This document shows, one piece after another, positions 49,141 to 53,678 of a DNA stretch of 64,000 nucleotides. Below the pieces are notes generated by a model that did no database searches, had not been told where the DNA came from, and saw only the letters and a program-made list of their open reading frames with translations. The position numbers and the translations under genes were made by a program. The stretch spans positions 736,024 to 800,023 of the forward strand of contig NZ_JAUCGR010000001.1 of NCBI RefSeq assembly GCF_030362815.1. The letters are read 5' to 3'. How positions within the stretch are numbered: the first letter of the stretch is position 1; each line of letters begins with the position of its first letter. Source of the DNA: Cellulomonas edaphi. GTDB lineage: Bacteria > Actinomycetota > Actinomycetes > Actinomycetales > Cellulomonadaceae.

Positions 49141-50358
49141 TCAGCGCACCCGCACGGACTCGTTGAGGAACTCCGAGACGTGCCGGCCCACCTGGTCCTC
49201 CTCGATGAGGAAGCCGTCGTGGCCGTAGTCGGAGTGCACGGTGCGCACCGGCCCGGCGCCGGGCACGCCCGCCGCGATGCGCTCGGACTGCGCGGGCGGG
49301 AACAGCCGGTCGGAGTCGACCGCGATGACCAGCCCGCGCGCCGTGATGCTCGCCAGAGCCGCCTCGACCCCACCGCGGTCGCGGCCCAGGTCGTGGGTGA
49401 TCATCGACCGGGTCAGCGTCACGTACGTGTTGGCGTCGAACCGGCGCGTGATCTTGTCGCCGTGGTGGTCCAGGTAGGACTGGACCGCGAACCGCCCGCC
49501 CTCGAGCGGGTCCTCGCCGCCCTGGGGGATGCGGCCGAACCGCTCGTCGAGCTCGTAGGCGCTGCGGTAGGTCTGGTGCGCGATCTGCCGCGCGAGGCCG
49601 AGGCCGACGTGGGGGCCGTCGCCGTCCGCGGCGTCGTAGTAGTCGCCGTCGCGGAACCGCGGGTCGGCGGCGATGGCCGCGAGCTGGGTGTGGAAGCCGG
49701 CGATCTGGTCGCCGGACGTCTGAGCCGCTGTCGCGATGGCCGCGAACGCCTCGACCCGATGCGGCTCGGAGGCCGCCCACTCGAGCACGCGCAGCCCGCC
49801 CATCGAGGCGCCGATGACGAGGGCCCACGTGTCGACGCCCAGCAGGTCGGCGAGCCGCACCTCGGCGGCCACCTGGTCGCGGACGGTGAGCAGCGGGAAG
49901 CGGCTGCCCCACGGGCGGCCGTCCGGAGCGGGTGAGGCGGGGCCGGTCGAGCCCTGGCAGCCGCCCAGCACGTTGGGCGCGACGACGAACCACTCGTCGG
50001 TGTCGATGGGCGCACCGGGCCCCACCATCGACGACCACCAGCCGGGCGTCGGGTGCGCCTCGTCGGCGTCCCCGATCACGTGCGAGTCGCCGGTCAGGGC
50101 GTGCAGGACGAGGACCGCGTTGGTGCCGTCCTCGTTGAGGGTGCCCCACGTCTCGTACGCGAGCCGGACGGCGGGCAGGCGCCCGCCCGACTCGAGCGCG
50201 AACGGCCCGAGGTCGGCGAACTGTCGACGGCCGACGGGGTCTCCCGCACGCCACGCCGCGGTGGCCGGCACCGCGGGTCGCGACGGCACCGGCACCCGGC
50301 TCGCGCGCGTCGAGGCGCGGGCGCGGGAGGGCGCGAAGGAGGGGAGATCGTCGGGCAC
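49141..50358 (-). CDS. metX: Homoserine O-acetyltransferase
   Basis: A 405-residue alpha/beta-hydrolase-fold acyltransferase that makes O-acetylhomoserine for methionine synthesis. HALTGDSHVIG gives the oxyanion strand, NVLGGCQGSTGPAS is the family signature, GASMGGLRVLEWA holds the nucleophile Ser, AVDSDRLFPP the Asp and DYGHDGFLIE the His. GTG 50358 is 7 nt after TAGATT on the minus strand, so it has its own leaderless promoter in the 84-bp gap after metY. The next enzyme of the pathway, metY, is directly upstream. Confidence 0.95.
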   Translation of the reverse strand: MPDDLPSFAPSRARASTRASRVPVPSRPAVPATAAWRAGDPVGRRQFADLGPFALESGGRLPAVRLAYETWGTLNEDGTNAVLVLHALTGDSHVIGDADEAHPTPGWWSSMVGPGAPIDTDEWFVVAPNVLGGCQGSTGPASPAPDGRPWGSRFPLLTVRDQVAAEVRLADLLGVDTWALVIGASMGGLRVLEWAASEPHRVEAFAAIATAAQTSGDQIAGFHTQLAAIAADPRFRDGDYYDAADGDGPHVGLGLARQIAHQTYRSAYELDERFGRIPQGGEDPLEGGRFAVQSYLDHHGDKITRRFDANTYVTLTRSMITHDLGRDRGGVEAALASITARGLVIAVDSDRLFPPAQSERIAAGVPGAGPVRTVHSDYGHDGFLIEEDQVGRHVSEFLNESVRVR

Positions 50359-50442
50359 GGCGACCAATCTACGCAAGGGGTCGGGATCCAGCGGGCGCCG
50401 ACCGGTGGGCGGGACGGGCAGCCCCGGCCCGCCCACCGTCGA

Positions 50443-51762
50443 TCACGCTCCCTTGGCGGCGCGGAAGCCCGCGTCGAGGTCGGCGAGGATGTCGTCGATG
50501 TGCTCGATGCCCACCGACAGGCGGACGAGCCCGGGGGTCACGCCCGAGAAGGCCTGCTCCTCCGGCGTCAGCTGGCTGTGCGTCGTGGAGGCCGGGTGGA
50601 TCACGAGCGAGCGCACGTCGCCGATGTTGGCCACGTTCGAGTGCAGCTCGAGCGCCGAGACGAACGCCTGGCCGGCGGCGGCGCCACCCTCCACCTCGAA
50701 CGCGAGCACCGCGCCCGCGCCCCGCGGCGCGTACTTGAGCTGGTTGGCGTGCCAGGGCGAGGACTCCAGGCCCGCGTAGTGCACGGCCAGCACGTCGTCA
50801 CGGGCCTCGAGCCACGCCGCGACCTTGGCCGCGTTCTCCACGTGCCGCTCCACGCGCAGCGAGAGCGTCTCGATGCCCTGGGCGATGAGGAACGCGTTGA
50901 ACGGCGAGAGCGACGAGCCGAGGTCGCGCAGCAGCTGCACGCGCGCCTTGAGGATGAAGGCGAGGTTGACGCCGAACAGGCCGCCGACGCCGAGGTCGCG
51001 CGCGAACACGAGCCCGTTGTAGGACGGGTCGGGGGTGTTGTAGTTGGCGAAGCGCTCCGGGTACTGCGCGTAGTCGAACGAGCCGCCGTCCACGATCACG
51101 CCGCCGATGGCCGAGCCGTGCCCGCCCAGGTACTTGGTGGCCGAGTGCACCACCACGTCGGCGCCCCACTGCAGCGGGTTGATGAGGTACGGCGTGGCCA
51201 CCGTGTTGTCCACGACGAGCGGCACCCCGTACTCGTGCGCGACGCCCGCCACGAGCTCGATGTCGAGCACGTCGGCCTTGGGGTTGGGGATCGTCTCCGC
51301 GAAGAACAGCTTGGTGTTGGGGCGGATCGCGTCCTTCCACGCCTGGGCGTCGTGCGGGTCGGTGACGAACGTCGTCTCGATGCCGAGCTTGGGCAGCGTG
51401 TAGTGGAGCAGGTTGTAGGTGCCGCCGTAGAGCGACGGGCTCGCGACCACGTGGTCGCCAGCCTCGGCGATGTTGAGGATCGCCAGCGTCTCGGCCGCCT
51501 GGCCCGACGAGACGAGCAGCGCGCCCACGCCGCCCTCGAGCGAGGCGATGCGGTTCTCGACGACCTCCTGCGTCGGGTTGCCGATGCGCGTGTAGATGGG
51601 CCCGAGCTCCTTGAGCGCGAACCGGTCGGCCGCCTGCTGGGCGCTGTCGAAGACGAAGGAGGTCGTCTGGTAGATCGGCAGCGCGCGGGCGCCGGTCGCC
51701 GGATCAGCCGTCTGGCCGGCGTGGATCTGGCGGGTCTCGAAGTTCCAGTTCTCGTTGCTCAC
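50443..51762 (-). CDS. metY: O-acetylhomoserine aminocarboxypropyltransferase (sulfhydrylase)
   Basis: A 439-residue PLP enzyme of the Cys/Met metabolism family that joins O-acetylhomoserine and sulfide to give homocysteine. The PLP Lys is in VVHSATKYLGGHGSAIGGV, and the phosphate-binding SSGQAAETLAI and YGGTYNLL motifs are present. The length fits MetY rather than the shorter MetB/MetC. GTG 51762 has GAGGAG 7 nt upstream. A 200-nt leader with a Cys/Met leader peptide and hairpins precedes it. Confidence 0.95.
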   Translation of the reverse strand: MSNENWNFETRQIHAGQTADPATGARALPIYQTTSFVFDSAQQAADRFALKELGPIYTRIGNPTQEVVENRIASLEGGVGALLVSSGQAAETLAILNIAEAGDHVVASPSLYGGTYNLLHYTLPKLGIETTFVTDPHDAQAWKDAIRPNTKLFFAETIPNPKADVLDIELVAGVAHEYGVPLVVDNTVATPYLINPLQWGADVVVHSATKYLGGHGSAIGGVIVDGGSFDYAQYPERFANYNTPDPSYNGLVFARDLGVGGLFGVNLAFILKARVQLLRDLGSSLSPFNAFLIAQGIETLSLRVERHVENAAKVAAWLEARDDVLAVHYAGLESSPWHANQLKYAPRGAGAVLAFEVEGGAAAGQAFVSALELHSNVANIGDVRSLVIHPASTTHSQLTPEEQAFSGVTPGLVRLSVGIEHIDDILADLDAGFRAAKGA

Positions 51763-51984
51763 GGTGGTGCTCCTCAGGTCTGCGGGATCAGTCGGGTGGA
51801 CGACCGCGGGGGAGCTGTGCGCGCTGCTGCCCGTCCCGCGGGGGGATCGAAGGGGCGCACGGATCGAGCGAGGCTCGTGGCGGGGTGCGTCGTCCGTCCG
51901 TCATCGACGGCGACGACCTGCCCGCGGGCACAGCCGAGCGTGCGCTGGTCAGCGACACATTCGGCAGGTCATGCGCCGAGGGTA
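51763..51984 (-). promoter_or_regulatory. metY leader region: leaderless promoter, leader peptide and hairpins (putative attenuator)
   Basis: Reading the minus strand: TACCCT (51984-51979) is 6 nt before the leader-peptide ATG (51972), so the transcript starts on that codon. After the peptide's stop the leader has a 12-bp palindrome TGCCCGCGGGCA (51930-51919), a hairpin with GTCGTC/GACGAC outer and CCGTC/GACGG inner stems (51917-51889), and a CCGCGGG/CCCGCGG pairing closer to the metY RBS. No SAM riboswitch core was recognised. In 51985-52087, toward the divergent gene, I see nothing but its promoter region. Confidence 0.6.
51949..51972 (-). CDS. Seven-residue Cys/Met leader peptide (MTCRMCR) of metY
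   Basis: ATG ACC TGC CGA ATG TGT CGC TGA on the minus strand, 187 nt before the metY GTG. Two of seven codons are Cys and two are Met. It begins 6 nt after TACCCT, so it should be translated leaderlessly from the first base of the mRNA. Short leaderless Cys-rich leader peptides that sense cysteine supply through stalling are known upstream of sulfur genes in other actinobacteria. No homology search was possible; the case rests on composition, position and promoter. Confidence 0.55.
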   Translation of the reverse strand: MTCRMCR

Positions 51985-52087
51985 GGGCGCTCGTCCCTGT
52001 GGGTGGAACGCCCATCTTGACATCCGAGACGTCCACTCTCGCGCCCGTATCTGGCGCACCGACGCTCCGCCCTTGATCTGCATGCCA

Positions 52088-52107
52088 GCGGCGCACCGAT
52101 GCGCCGC
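52088..52107 (+). repeat. 8-bp stem, CCGA loop, in the leader of the RCC1-like gene
   Basis: GCGGCGCA (52088-52095) pairs with TGCGCCGC (52100-52107) just before the GAGGGG ribosome-binding site at about 52113. It could shape the leader or limit readthrough; function unknown. Confidence 0.4.
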
Positions 52108-52124
52108 ACGACGAGGGGACGATC

Positions 52125-53678
52125 ATGCAGACAGCTTCGAAGGCCCCGGCTCTGCGACGCACCGGCGTCGCACTGCTCGCGGCCGCAGCACTCACGTTCA
52201 CCACCCTCGGGCCGGCGCACGCCGTCCCCGAGGGTGCTCGCGTCTCCACGGGCGGCGACGTCGTCGCGTGGGGCCTCGCCAGCGACGGTCGCACCACCGT
52301 GCCCGAGCTGCCGCCGGGCGTCGCCTACCGCGCGATCAGCGGCGGGGACTCCGCGAGCCTCGCCGTGCGCTCCGATGGTCAGGTGGCCGGATTCGGCTAC
52401 GGCTCGCCGACGGCACCGGCCCTCGCAGGGTCGCAGAAGTACATCGGCGTCTCGGCGGGCTCGGCCCACTACCTCTACCTGCGCTCCGACGGCCAGGTCC
52501 GCGGCTCGGGGGACAACACGTACGGCGAGCTCAACCTCCCGGCCCTGCCGGCTGGTGCCCGGTACAAGGCCGTCTCGGCGGGGAACTACTGGAGCCTGGC
52601 GCTGCGGTCGGACGGCCGGATCGCAGCGGCCGGGTACACGGGGTACGGCACCACGACCGTGCCCGCGCTCCCCGCCGGCCTGCGGTACACGGCGGTCGCG
52701 GCGGGTTACGCGCACGCGGCCGCGCTGCGCAGCGACGGCCGCATCGTCGCCTGGGGCTCGCCGATCGCGGGGGAGACGACCATCGCCAACCCGCCGAGCG
52801 GCGTGCACTACACGGCGGTCACGACGACCTACGGCCTGACGCTGGCGCTGCGCTCCGACGGCAAGGTGGTCGGCTTCGGCTACAACTCCGACGGCCAGGC
52901 CACCCCGCCCCACCCGCCGAGCGGATCGAAGTTCGTCGCGGTCGCCGCGACGTACTTCACGGGCGCCGCACTGACGAACAAGGGCAAGATCGTCACGTGG
53001 GGCAGCTCGGCGAACGGCCTCCTGGACGTGCCCGCGGCGCCGGCCGGCACCCGGTACTCGGCGCTCGCCGGCGGTGGCTACCACTTCCTGGCGCTGACCA
53101 GCCGGACCACGAAGACGACGGCCGTCGCGCCGAGCGTGTGGCGGTACGGCAAGACGGCCAAGCTCACGGCGAAGGTCACGGCCGTCGGCGTCACCCCCAC
53201 GGGGACGGTGTCGGTGTTCAAGGGGTCGAAGCTCGTGGGCAAGGCGGCGCTGTCGTCGGGCAAGGCCAAGGTCACGCTCAAGGCCAAGGCGCTCAAGCCG
53301 GGCACCTACACGCTCGCCGTGAAGTACAGCGGCGCGACCGCGCTGGCGCCGTCGAAGACGTCGGTGCGCGTGAAGGTGGTCAAGGCGACGGCGACCGCAA
53401 GGGCGGCGCTGGTCGCCCCGACGATCGGCCGGACGGCGCACGGCAAGGTCAAGGTCGTCGTGACGGCGCCCGGTGTGACGCCGACCGGAAAGGTGCGGGT
53501 CTACGACGGCAGCACGCCGCTCGTGACGGTCACGCTCACGAGCTCGCACCACGGCAAGATCACGGCGACGCTGCCCCGGCTCTCGCCGGGCACGCACCAC
53601 CTCAAGGTGTTCTACCTGGGCTCCTCGCTCGTCGCGAAGGACCAGGCTCCGACGGTGCACCTCACGGTCAGGAGCTGA
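52125..53678 (+). CDS. Secreted RCC1-like beta-propeller protein with Ig-like C-terminal domains
   Basis: 517 residues. Signal peptide about 1-33 (AALTFTTLGPAHA). Seven RCC1-type blades run from about 40 to 325, each with a SDG(Q/R/K) turn and a G-x-G or WG ending (DVVAWGLASDGRTTVPELP, GQVAGFGYGS, GQVRGSGDN, GRIAAAGYTG, GRIVAWGSP, GKVVGFGYNS, GKIVTWGSS). Two Ig-like repeats follow (about 335-425 and 430-517; TGTVSVFKGSKLV, TGKVRVYDGSTPL), like those of the S8 protease. No catalytic motif. Propellers of this type often bind polysaccharide or protein; ligand unknown. ATG has GAGGGG about 8 nt upstream. Divergent from metY. Confidence 0.82.
   Translation: MQTASKAPALRRTGVALLAAAALTFTTLGPAHAVPEGARVSTGGDVVAWGLASDGRTTVPELPPGVAYRAISGGDSASLAVRSDGQVAGFGYGSPTAPALAGSQKYIGVSAGSAHYLYLRSDGQVRGSGDNTYGELNLPALPAGARYKAVSAGNYWSLALRSDGRIAAAGYTGYGTTTVPALPAGLRYTAVAAGYAHAAALRSDGRIVAWGSPIAGETTIANPPSGVHYTAVTTTYGLTLALRSDGKVVGFGYNSDGQATPPHPPSGSKFVAVAATYFTGAALTNKGKIVTWGSSANGLLDVPAAPAGTRYSALAGGGYHFLALTSRTTKTTAVAPSVWRYGKTAKLTAKVTAVGVTPTGTVSVFKGSKLVGKAALSSGKAKVTLKAKALKPGTYTLAVKYSGATALAPSKTSVRVKVVKATATARAALVAPTIGRTAHGKVKVVVTAPGVTPTGKVRVYDGSTPLVTVTLTSSHHGKITATLPRLSPGTHHLKVFYLGSSLVAKDQAPTVHLTVRS

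Follow-up and report, generated by a model that had tools for sequence, protein, structure and literature searches.

The window, a stretch of 64,000 nucleotides from Cellulomonas edaphi, carries on its minus strand a metY-metX operon preceded by a very short open reading frame (Table 1). The start codon of metY is a GTG at 51762. The initial annotation had placed TACCCT 6 nt before the ATG of the frame MTCRMCR*, which is confirmed; its distance of 187 nt from the frame to metY is corrected to 186 nt, counted from the leader stop to the GTG. Transcription would be expected to start at, or adjoining, the A of the leader ATG. A consensus scan of 51600-52200 found no sigma-70 promoter, so that the assignment of the -10 box rests on leaderless geometry; no T-tailed terminator was found by scan of the same interval. 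Taken whole, the 222-nt leader shows no clear folding advantage over its shuffles (z -1.37; 16 of 200 as good). At the gathering score, tRNA is the only Rfam match in the window, with no curated cis-regulatory family in the leader, and a search of 51650-52120 at E up to 5 returned two weak matches, SECIS_2 (21 bits, gathering 70) and a trypanosome snoRNA. Seven SAM-IV riboswitch matches occur in this genome (e.g. C1:14240-14353 and C1:969880-969994), none of them at metY. The leader ORF is the sole match in its own genome to the pattern CATGN{2,30}CGAATGNNNNNNTGA. A divergent ORF at 52125-53678 on the plus strand starts 152 bp from the leader ATG, and its repeats, we presume, resemble RCC1 repeats.

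Table 1. Features of the metY-metX operon and its leader in the window
Feature	Position	Strand	Support or remark
metY, bifunctional O-acetylhomoserine/O-acetylserine sulfhydrylase, 439 aa	50443..51762	minus	NCBIfam NF005872 761.7 bits (cut-off 703), Pfam PF01053
metX, homoserine O-acetyltransferase, directly 3' of metY	49141..50436	minus	NCBIfam NF047917 510.7 bits (cut-off 475)
metY Shine-Dalgarno sequence GAGGAGC	51769..51775	minus	similar in most rows of genus alignment A4
-10 box TACCCT (TANNNT), 6 nt 5' of leader ATG	51979..51984	minus	sequence and spacing in relatives
Leaderless leader ORF, ATG ACC TGC CGA ATG TGT CGC TGA = MTCRMCR*	51949..51972	minus	
Rare-codon pair CGA-AUG (Arg-Met), two codons before the stop; proposed pausing/sensing point	51958..51963	minus	comparison
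RNA arm 1, inside the ORF, 5' side of hairpin 1:2	51951..51965	minus	predicted folds
RNA arm 2, core GCGCAC 51945-51940; 3' side of hairpin 1:2, alternative partner of arm 3	51933..51946	minus	
RNA arm 3, CGTGCGC, complementary to arm 2	51855..51861	minus	nearly invariant block of genus alignment (one of few)
C-rich stretch just 3' of arm 3; possible Rho-entry-like region	51836..51854	minus	suggestive only
12-bp palindrome TGCCCGCGGGCA	51919..51930	minus	perfect in few relatives
Two-part hairpin	51889..51917	minus	not conserved

Conservation of the frame and its codons

Absence of the frame from close relatives, the outcome against which the initial annotation had staked its proposal, is clearly not what is found: the frame precedes metY in 28 of 29 same-genus loci, and the exception has just 54 nt of upstream sequence. 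CGAATG-NNN-NGC-TGA is the most conserved part, and codon 2 and the promoter spacer vary. For the genus alignment, leaders had to contain RM and then C, R or P. A search of the wider family found metY in 92 of 101 genomes. Using a codon-free rule (TANNNT 4-9 nt before ATG or GTG; Arg or Lys, then Met, 1-3 residues before the stop), a leaderless frame was recovered in 70 of 79 further family metY loci and in 4 of 17 loci from the same genus and other families, giving 74 leaders in total. Four further family loci (L301, L304, L314 and L325) carry the frame without TANNNT at that distance, and in G058 and G219 the leader sits before metX instead of metY. One concern for an attenuator is that metY is without the leader in three genomes of one genus (G275, G822 and G834).

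In 106 of 117 related leaders, which were collected by requiring CGAATG, a TANNNT box is separated from the leader start by 6 or 7 nt; only 4 of 549 other ATGs of the same upstream regions have the box at this spacing. Against this control, the leaderless geometry is in excess of chance. Duplicate sequences entered the counts only once; the keys used to recognise them differed in length, which is why n is 113 or 117. Five metagenome loci of other architecture (L037, L038, L039, L043 and L046), all with CGA-AUG, were excluded from the tallies (n 118, 113 and 117), as was L030 with its irregular metY start; L234, whose contig ends 31 bases beyond the gene, was also excluded.

The leader peptides (MTCRMCR, MSRRMCR, MFRRMCR, MTKRMCC, MTMRMCC, MTRRMCCC, MTRRMCSC, MTCRMCCH, MTRRMRS, MFRRMPS and MFRRPEALRPDTPTTGRMRS) vary at their start and end, and the constant core is Arg-Met followed by a short tail and the stop. 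Two codons lie between Met and the stop in 103 of 113 leaders and three in 10 of 113; metagenome and metN-like leaders may have more. The frame is retained with N-termini of varied length, with ATG or GTG as start and TGA, TAA or TAG as stop, whether leaderless or led by a Shine-Dalgarno (SD) sequence. Since either Arg/Lys-Met or CGAATG was a search requirement, Met is constant in part by design of the search. The residue before Met is Arg, encoded by CGA, in all 74 leaders of the codon-free search, and the constancy of CGA is claimed from that search only, because the other set required CGAATG and a stop within 8 codons. Elsewhere CGA is a rare Arg codon, with 4 occurrences among 608 across 33 metY genes and 41 among 956 across those window ORFs that were chosen by codon-position GC. 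Neighbouring synonymous sites vary (the codon before CGA is CGT in 41 cases and CGC in 32; Cys is TGT in 80 and TGC in 25), and therefore it is specifically the A of CGA that is kept.

The mixed Cys/Met peptide of the initial annotation holds as far as its Met and Cys codons are concerned, but the Cys before CGA is found in only 32 of 113 distinct leaders, the usual residue being Arg. Within the family, Cys is about as constant as Met. In 105 of 113 leaders the residue after Met is Cys, in some cases the first of a run, and at least two Cys are present in 50 of 113; four of the 113 metY leaders have none (MTRRMRS, MFRRMPS, MFRRPEALRPDTPTTGRMRS and VNHHRMRR). The window leader has two separated Cys codons and no contiguous Cys run, such runs occurring in some relatives only. 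Most leaders contain a single internal Met and no Met run, which counts against an attenuator. At two metagenome metY loci (L037 and L043), longer leaderless-type leaders with VSRR(F/Y)VDxxRVASQMC end in RMPSAA or RMPGCP; this type joins a Cys-containing motif to the CGA-AUG end.

Alternative pairing in the leader RNA

In many family members, CGAAUGUGY of the ORF is predicted to pair with RCACGUUCG just 3' of the stop (hairpin 1:2); in 67 of 118 leaders this pairing is equalled by no more than 2 of 50 shuffles. The hairpin is missing from the lineages L036, L284, L301 and L325, which counts against an attenuator. When arm 2 has its main form, GCGCAC, a distal arm 3 GTGCGC is its partner in 71 of 84 leaders and is missing in 13 of 84. 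Leaders with GCACAC as arm 2 have the compensatory partner GTGTGC in 4 of 5 cases (main type: 1 of 84), and those with CCGCAC have GTGCGG in 4 of 7 (main type: 5 of 84). Fisher p values for this 2:3 covariation are 1e-5 for GCACAC and 1.4e-3 for CCGCAC, without correction for relatedness; two genera contribute the GCACAC pairs (L028; L267, L268 and L270) and one genus the CCGCAC pairs. Counting against 2:3, GTGCGC is also or instead present in 3 of 5 GCACAC leaders and 1 of 7 CCGCAC leaders. Other arm-2 triplets have their own partner in only 1 of 17 leaders. Taken together, 80 of the 113 leaders having arm 2 possess their own arm-3 partner, and 4 more leaders are without arm 2. Measured against shuffles the 2:3 signal is modest, with 18 of 118 leaders at or under 2 of 50, and thermodynamic support for it is weak. 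Among the compared leaders, mutually exclusive pairings involving the ORF (1:2 versus 2:3) are present, though not in every lineage, and the idea that the leaderless short frame before metY-metX overlaps an RNA structure able to switch is borne out to that extent.

The structures originally singled out, the palindrome and the two-part hairpin, exist in the window but are not conserved. Since just 12 of 118 leaders have the palindrome in perfect form and the hairpin falls in a gappy stretch of the alignment, the frame, rather than either of these, is the conserved object. TGCC[CT] is better preserved than the palindrome around it: 95 of 118 leaders have it no more than 55 nt past the stop.

Other structural candidates were rejected. 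RNAalifold on the genus alignments gave 5 pairs with no double change for A3 and 18 pairs with one for A4; the genus varies too little for this approach, and the cross-family covariation test was therefore used instead. For a 3:4 terminator, neither a conserved arm 4 (mean percentile 0.54, n 80) nor a T-tailed site was found. Sequestration of the metY SD by a GCTCC(TCG) anti-SD is attractive in some members of the genus, but across the leaders as a whole it does not outdo shuffles (8 of 118). At the 73 loci with a recognisable SD, modelled stalling changes access to it little (p 0.037; 18 up, 11 down). The maximum C-over-G excess lies in the top 5% of the local background in 14 of 32 leaders, a richness that is suggestive only and fits a Rho-type exit without showing it.

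Outside the metY set, pairing of arm 1 with the next 35 nt was at or under 5 of 100 shuffles in 0 of 21 loci (11 before the f19 regulator described below, 4 before metF, 1 before a metN-like gene, 2 before f15 metY and 3 before metX). CGA-AUG is retained in all 21, CGAATG having been required by the pattern that collected them. At metY loci of families f3, f13 and f20, arm-1 pairing was at or under 2 of 100 shuffles in 4 of 5.

SAM-IV-linked leaders and other target genes

In the initial annotation, a mixed Cys/Met peptide before metY-metX would be a distinct version of the leaderless leaders known from actinobacteria. The element is not confined to this locus: it belongs to a broad family, whose members also stand before metX, metF, metN-like genes and a regulator gene, and in some loci follow a SAM-IV riboswitch. 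A SAM-IV aptamer (RF00634) was found in 16 of 40 loci scanned, in 15 cases before metY. Eight of the 15 metY cases have, 28-39 nt after the aptamer, the start of an ORF with an SD-like sequence, and the peptides linked in this way are VNCRMCC, MSCCRRMLLR, MCCCCRMTSR, MSCCRR, MTCRMPF, VTCRMRR, VIERMCR and VNHHRMRR. MSCCRR has no internal Met, which counts against Met sensing. At a ninth locus (L242) the sequence is present with a broken frame, and 6 of the 15 have no such ORF. In a broader survey, SAM-IV was found in 148 of 248 genomes of the order; 30 SAM-IV loci were taken, of which 25 could be anchored, and 3 of the 25 show such an ORF, two already counted and one new (L343, VIQRMCP, with metY behind). 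Two f15 genomes (L162 and L163) have an aptamer ending 30 nt before the ORF of a peptide identical to that of the window, MTCRMCR, followed by metY. The full succession of SAM-IV, an SD-led Cys/Met ORF and metY is seen at L046, L038, L039, L057, L162, L163, L239, L240, L243, L238 and L343. With both SAM-IV-led and leaderless cases at hand, it follows that one kind of ORF is found under either arrangement and that the gate in front differs. From position only, we infer that SAM-IV controls the leader ORF.

A pattern search requiring CGAATG over 396 genomes of the order gave matches in 123, many of which hold chance matches inside other genes (e.g. in f6 and f7); 70 loci (L112-L181) were examined. 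Leaders were found in families f1, f3, f9, f12, f13, f15, f19 and f20 (numbering of this analysis), to which other searches add f2 and f5. The same peptide ending precedes metX in L151, L152 and L154, whose products are 68-69% identical to the window MetX, and metF in L116, L120, L143 and L144, with the peptide MCGSIRARMCS; the MetF product has its best NCBIfam match below the cut-off (233.8 of 293.7 bits) and a clear Pfam MTHFR match. A metN-like transporter gene in L146 is preceded by MCRARMCR, and the f20 metN-like loci L185, L191, L199 and L200 also have a leader, with CGA-ATG doubled in three of the four. An RM leader is present in 5 of 31 metN-like loci examined, the best NCBIfam match of the metN-like protein being below its cut-off (284 of 499.7 bits). 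A 33-residue frame ending in RMS at the metN-like locus L197 lacks start signals and was taken for chance.

At the f19 loci L164-L171 and L179-L181, MCCRMCR or MCCRMCS precedes an ORF for a winged-helix protein with Trans_reg_C as its only Pfam match (checked on L180), possibly a sulfur-amino-acid regulator that is itself controlled by this sensor. No such leader is present at L249, the only f19 locus whose metY upstream sequence was examined. Several f19 loci have a palindrome like GCCGGC-ATGATGATG-CCGGC just upstream. A phylum-wide M-C-R-R-M pattern matched 21 of 396 genomes, and was rejected since none of the 21 loci resembles the short leader; neither metN nor metY, the two genes checked, lies within 1400 nt downstream of them.

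A candidate ribosome-sensing attenuator

On balance, the translated leaderless leader peptide is probably a cis-acting, ribosome-sensing attenuator of the metY-metX operon, a reading held with somewhat better than even confidence. It would sense through its Met codons and, probably, its Cys codons. The basis is comparative and consists of conservation, codon choice, covariation, gene context and the position behind SAM-IV. As the frame is conserved across many relatives, it is very probably a real sensing switch. The stalling, the signal, its direction and the output step are what we infer. A ribosome would start at the 5'-end AUG and slow at the poorly decoded CGA, with AUG, and then usually UGY, next. 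If charged tRNA-Met, and probably tRNA-Cys, were scarce, the ribosome would wait and cover arm 1, 2:3 could form and metY would be on; a stall at AUG (Met-tRNA short) or at UGY (Cys-tRNA short) would leave arm 2 free for arm 3. If Met and Cys were plentiful, the ribosome would finish at the stop two or three codons on and leave, 1:2 would reform and metY would go down. In the SAM-IV versions, SAM would block initiation at the leader as a second input, acting in the same OFF direction as ribosome release. For the output step, Rho-dependent transcription termination and access to the metY SD come into consideration, with a lean towards transcription.

A bolder extension, which is offered tentatively and at rather less than even confidence, is that CGA-AUG near a stop constitutes a portable methionine-sensing cassette of an actinobacterial order, with cysteine as a second reader, placed under one of two gates: a leaderless promoter or SAM-IV acting on the start of the leader ORF. 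In the SAM-IV form, the riboswitch would decide whether the sensor is read, amounting to an AND gate of low SAM and low Met/Cys charging. The rare CGA would be part of the sensor because its slow decoding would hold the ribosome with AUG next. Slow decoding of CGA has a precedent in a his leader, which we take to be that of Salmonella. The report on that leader states that CGA is decoded more slowly than CGU and CGC (PMC4046918).

The chief rival is an attenuator of the mycobacterial polycysteine type that reads Cys alone, with the Cys after Met as sensor and Met and CGA as mere context. Cys after Met in 105 of 113 distinct metY leaders, at least one Cys in 109 of 113, and the existence of Cys runs (MTRRMCC, MTRRMCCC, MTCRMCCC, MCCCCRMTSR and MSCCRR) speak for it, as do the Cys-responsive leaderless leaders that articles on mycobacteria treat as established (PMC9031893, PMC13236596). 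It is nevertheless judged unlikely. Orthologous leaders occur without Cys after Met (MTRRMRS, MFRRMPS, MTCRMPF, VTCRMRR, VNHHRMRR and MSCRLTRRMHH), the metN-like leaders end in RMPQRG or RMPRRG, also without it, and metX, metF and metN-like genes, whose products serve methionine synthesis or import, are among the targets. A sensor of Cys alone further leaves the fixed CGA unexplained. That same wobble base weighs on a ligand-dependent arrest of the nascent chain, in which R-M-C at the tunnel entrance would sense free methionine, SAM or another metabolite, comparable to TnaC and tryptophan: CGC, CGT and CGG would encode the same peptide, yet CGA is constant. Conservation of the C-terminal peptide at a fixed distance from the stop would suit such an arrest, and SAM is already a signal in the SAM-IV versions. 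However, the residues after Met vary (C, R, P, H), the peptide is merely 5-7 residues long at Met in most leaders, and arrest of this kind is improbable.

If the constant and rare CGA were instead a timer of fixed length, coupling the ribosome to the polymerase irrespective of amino acid supply, the slowing of decoding by CGA described for the his leader (PMC4046918) would find a ready use; but such a timer would account neither for the AUG that comes next nor for methionine genes as the targets, and very little weight is given to this reading. Least probable, and by a small step only, is a structured RNA or protein-binding motif that contains CGAATG and in which the frame is incidental and untranslated. 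The pairing of CGAAUGUGY with the downstream RCACGUUCG in many family members is what such a motif would predict, whereas the frame is kept despite varied N-terminal lengths, start codons and stops and in both leaderless and SD-led form, and CGAATG is kept at loci where that pairing is unsupported.

By analogy, the leader favoured here as a ribosome-sensing attenuator would work like the amino-acid leader-peptide attenuators, and it resembles the polycysteine leaders of mycobacteria. With attenuators of the trp/his type, in the broad sense, it shares a conserved ORF with Met, and usually Cys, codons, here before metY-metX, and mutually exclusive RNA pairings involving the ORF; unlike them, the window leader has no intrinsic U-run terminator hairpin (3:4). 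The mycobacterial polycysteine leaders, as sketched in secondary accounts (Canestrari et al. 2020, via PMC9031893, PMC13236596 and PMC9094748; earlier PMC4633059), are likewise leaderless short ORFs of actinobacteria with Cys near the stop, before sulfur-amino-acid genes. By comparison with those accounts, the present family differs in its constant CGA-AUG, in Cys that mostly does not form a run, in its methionine-gene targets and in its SD-led occurrence behind SAM-IV. Candidate Cys leader peptides of mycobacterial cys operons and of P. acnes and B. longum cbs (Seliverstov 2005, PMC1262725) are similar in having Cys near the stop and no conserved terminator, and Rho was suggested for them; in contrast to the family described here, that 2005 actinobacterial survey is reported to have found no conserved RNA element upstream of methionine operons (PMC1262725).

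The metL leader of Streptomyces lividans TK24, MSTTSDRTPATEATTTPGARCMCRRMCAF*, is leaderless, lies before the methionine-uptake genes metNIQ and ends in Met/Cys/Arg codons including RRMC (PMC8079986 Table 4). It differs in its 29 codons and its spacing to the stop, and as far as known from that source, no CGA-AUG rule or alternative pairing is described for it (PMC8079986). A search for the metL motif CMCRRMC in 101 genomes of one genus, probably Streptomyces, gave no match. For M. tuberculosis metE and ppe2, B12 riboswitches and uORFs are described as together governing the downstream gene (PMC11260477), a parallel to SAM-IV and leader in the relatives; judged by that description, the ligand class and the ORFs are different, and the window locus is without a riboswitch. 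SAM-IV (RF00634) precedes metY in relatives and has no match in the window leader.

Among the matches listed in a search of the open-access literature, no earlier description of the CGA-AUG leader family was found. Leader-peptide control of methionine genes seems rarely described, S. lividans metL being the case found. Because annotation passes over frames of this length, further cases may come to light by the same search. The constancy of a synonymous codon choice across several families makes a single base, the A of CGA, a testable part of a sensor. Further, to judge from the SAM-IV version, the direct target of some riboswitches may be a leader ORF instead of the enzyme gene; riboswitches of this kind would then have to be interpreted differently.
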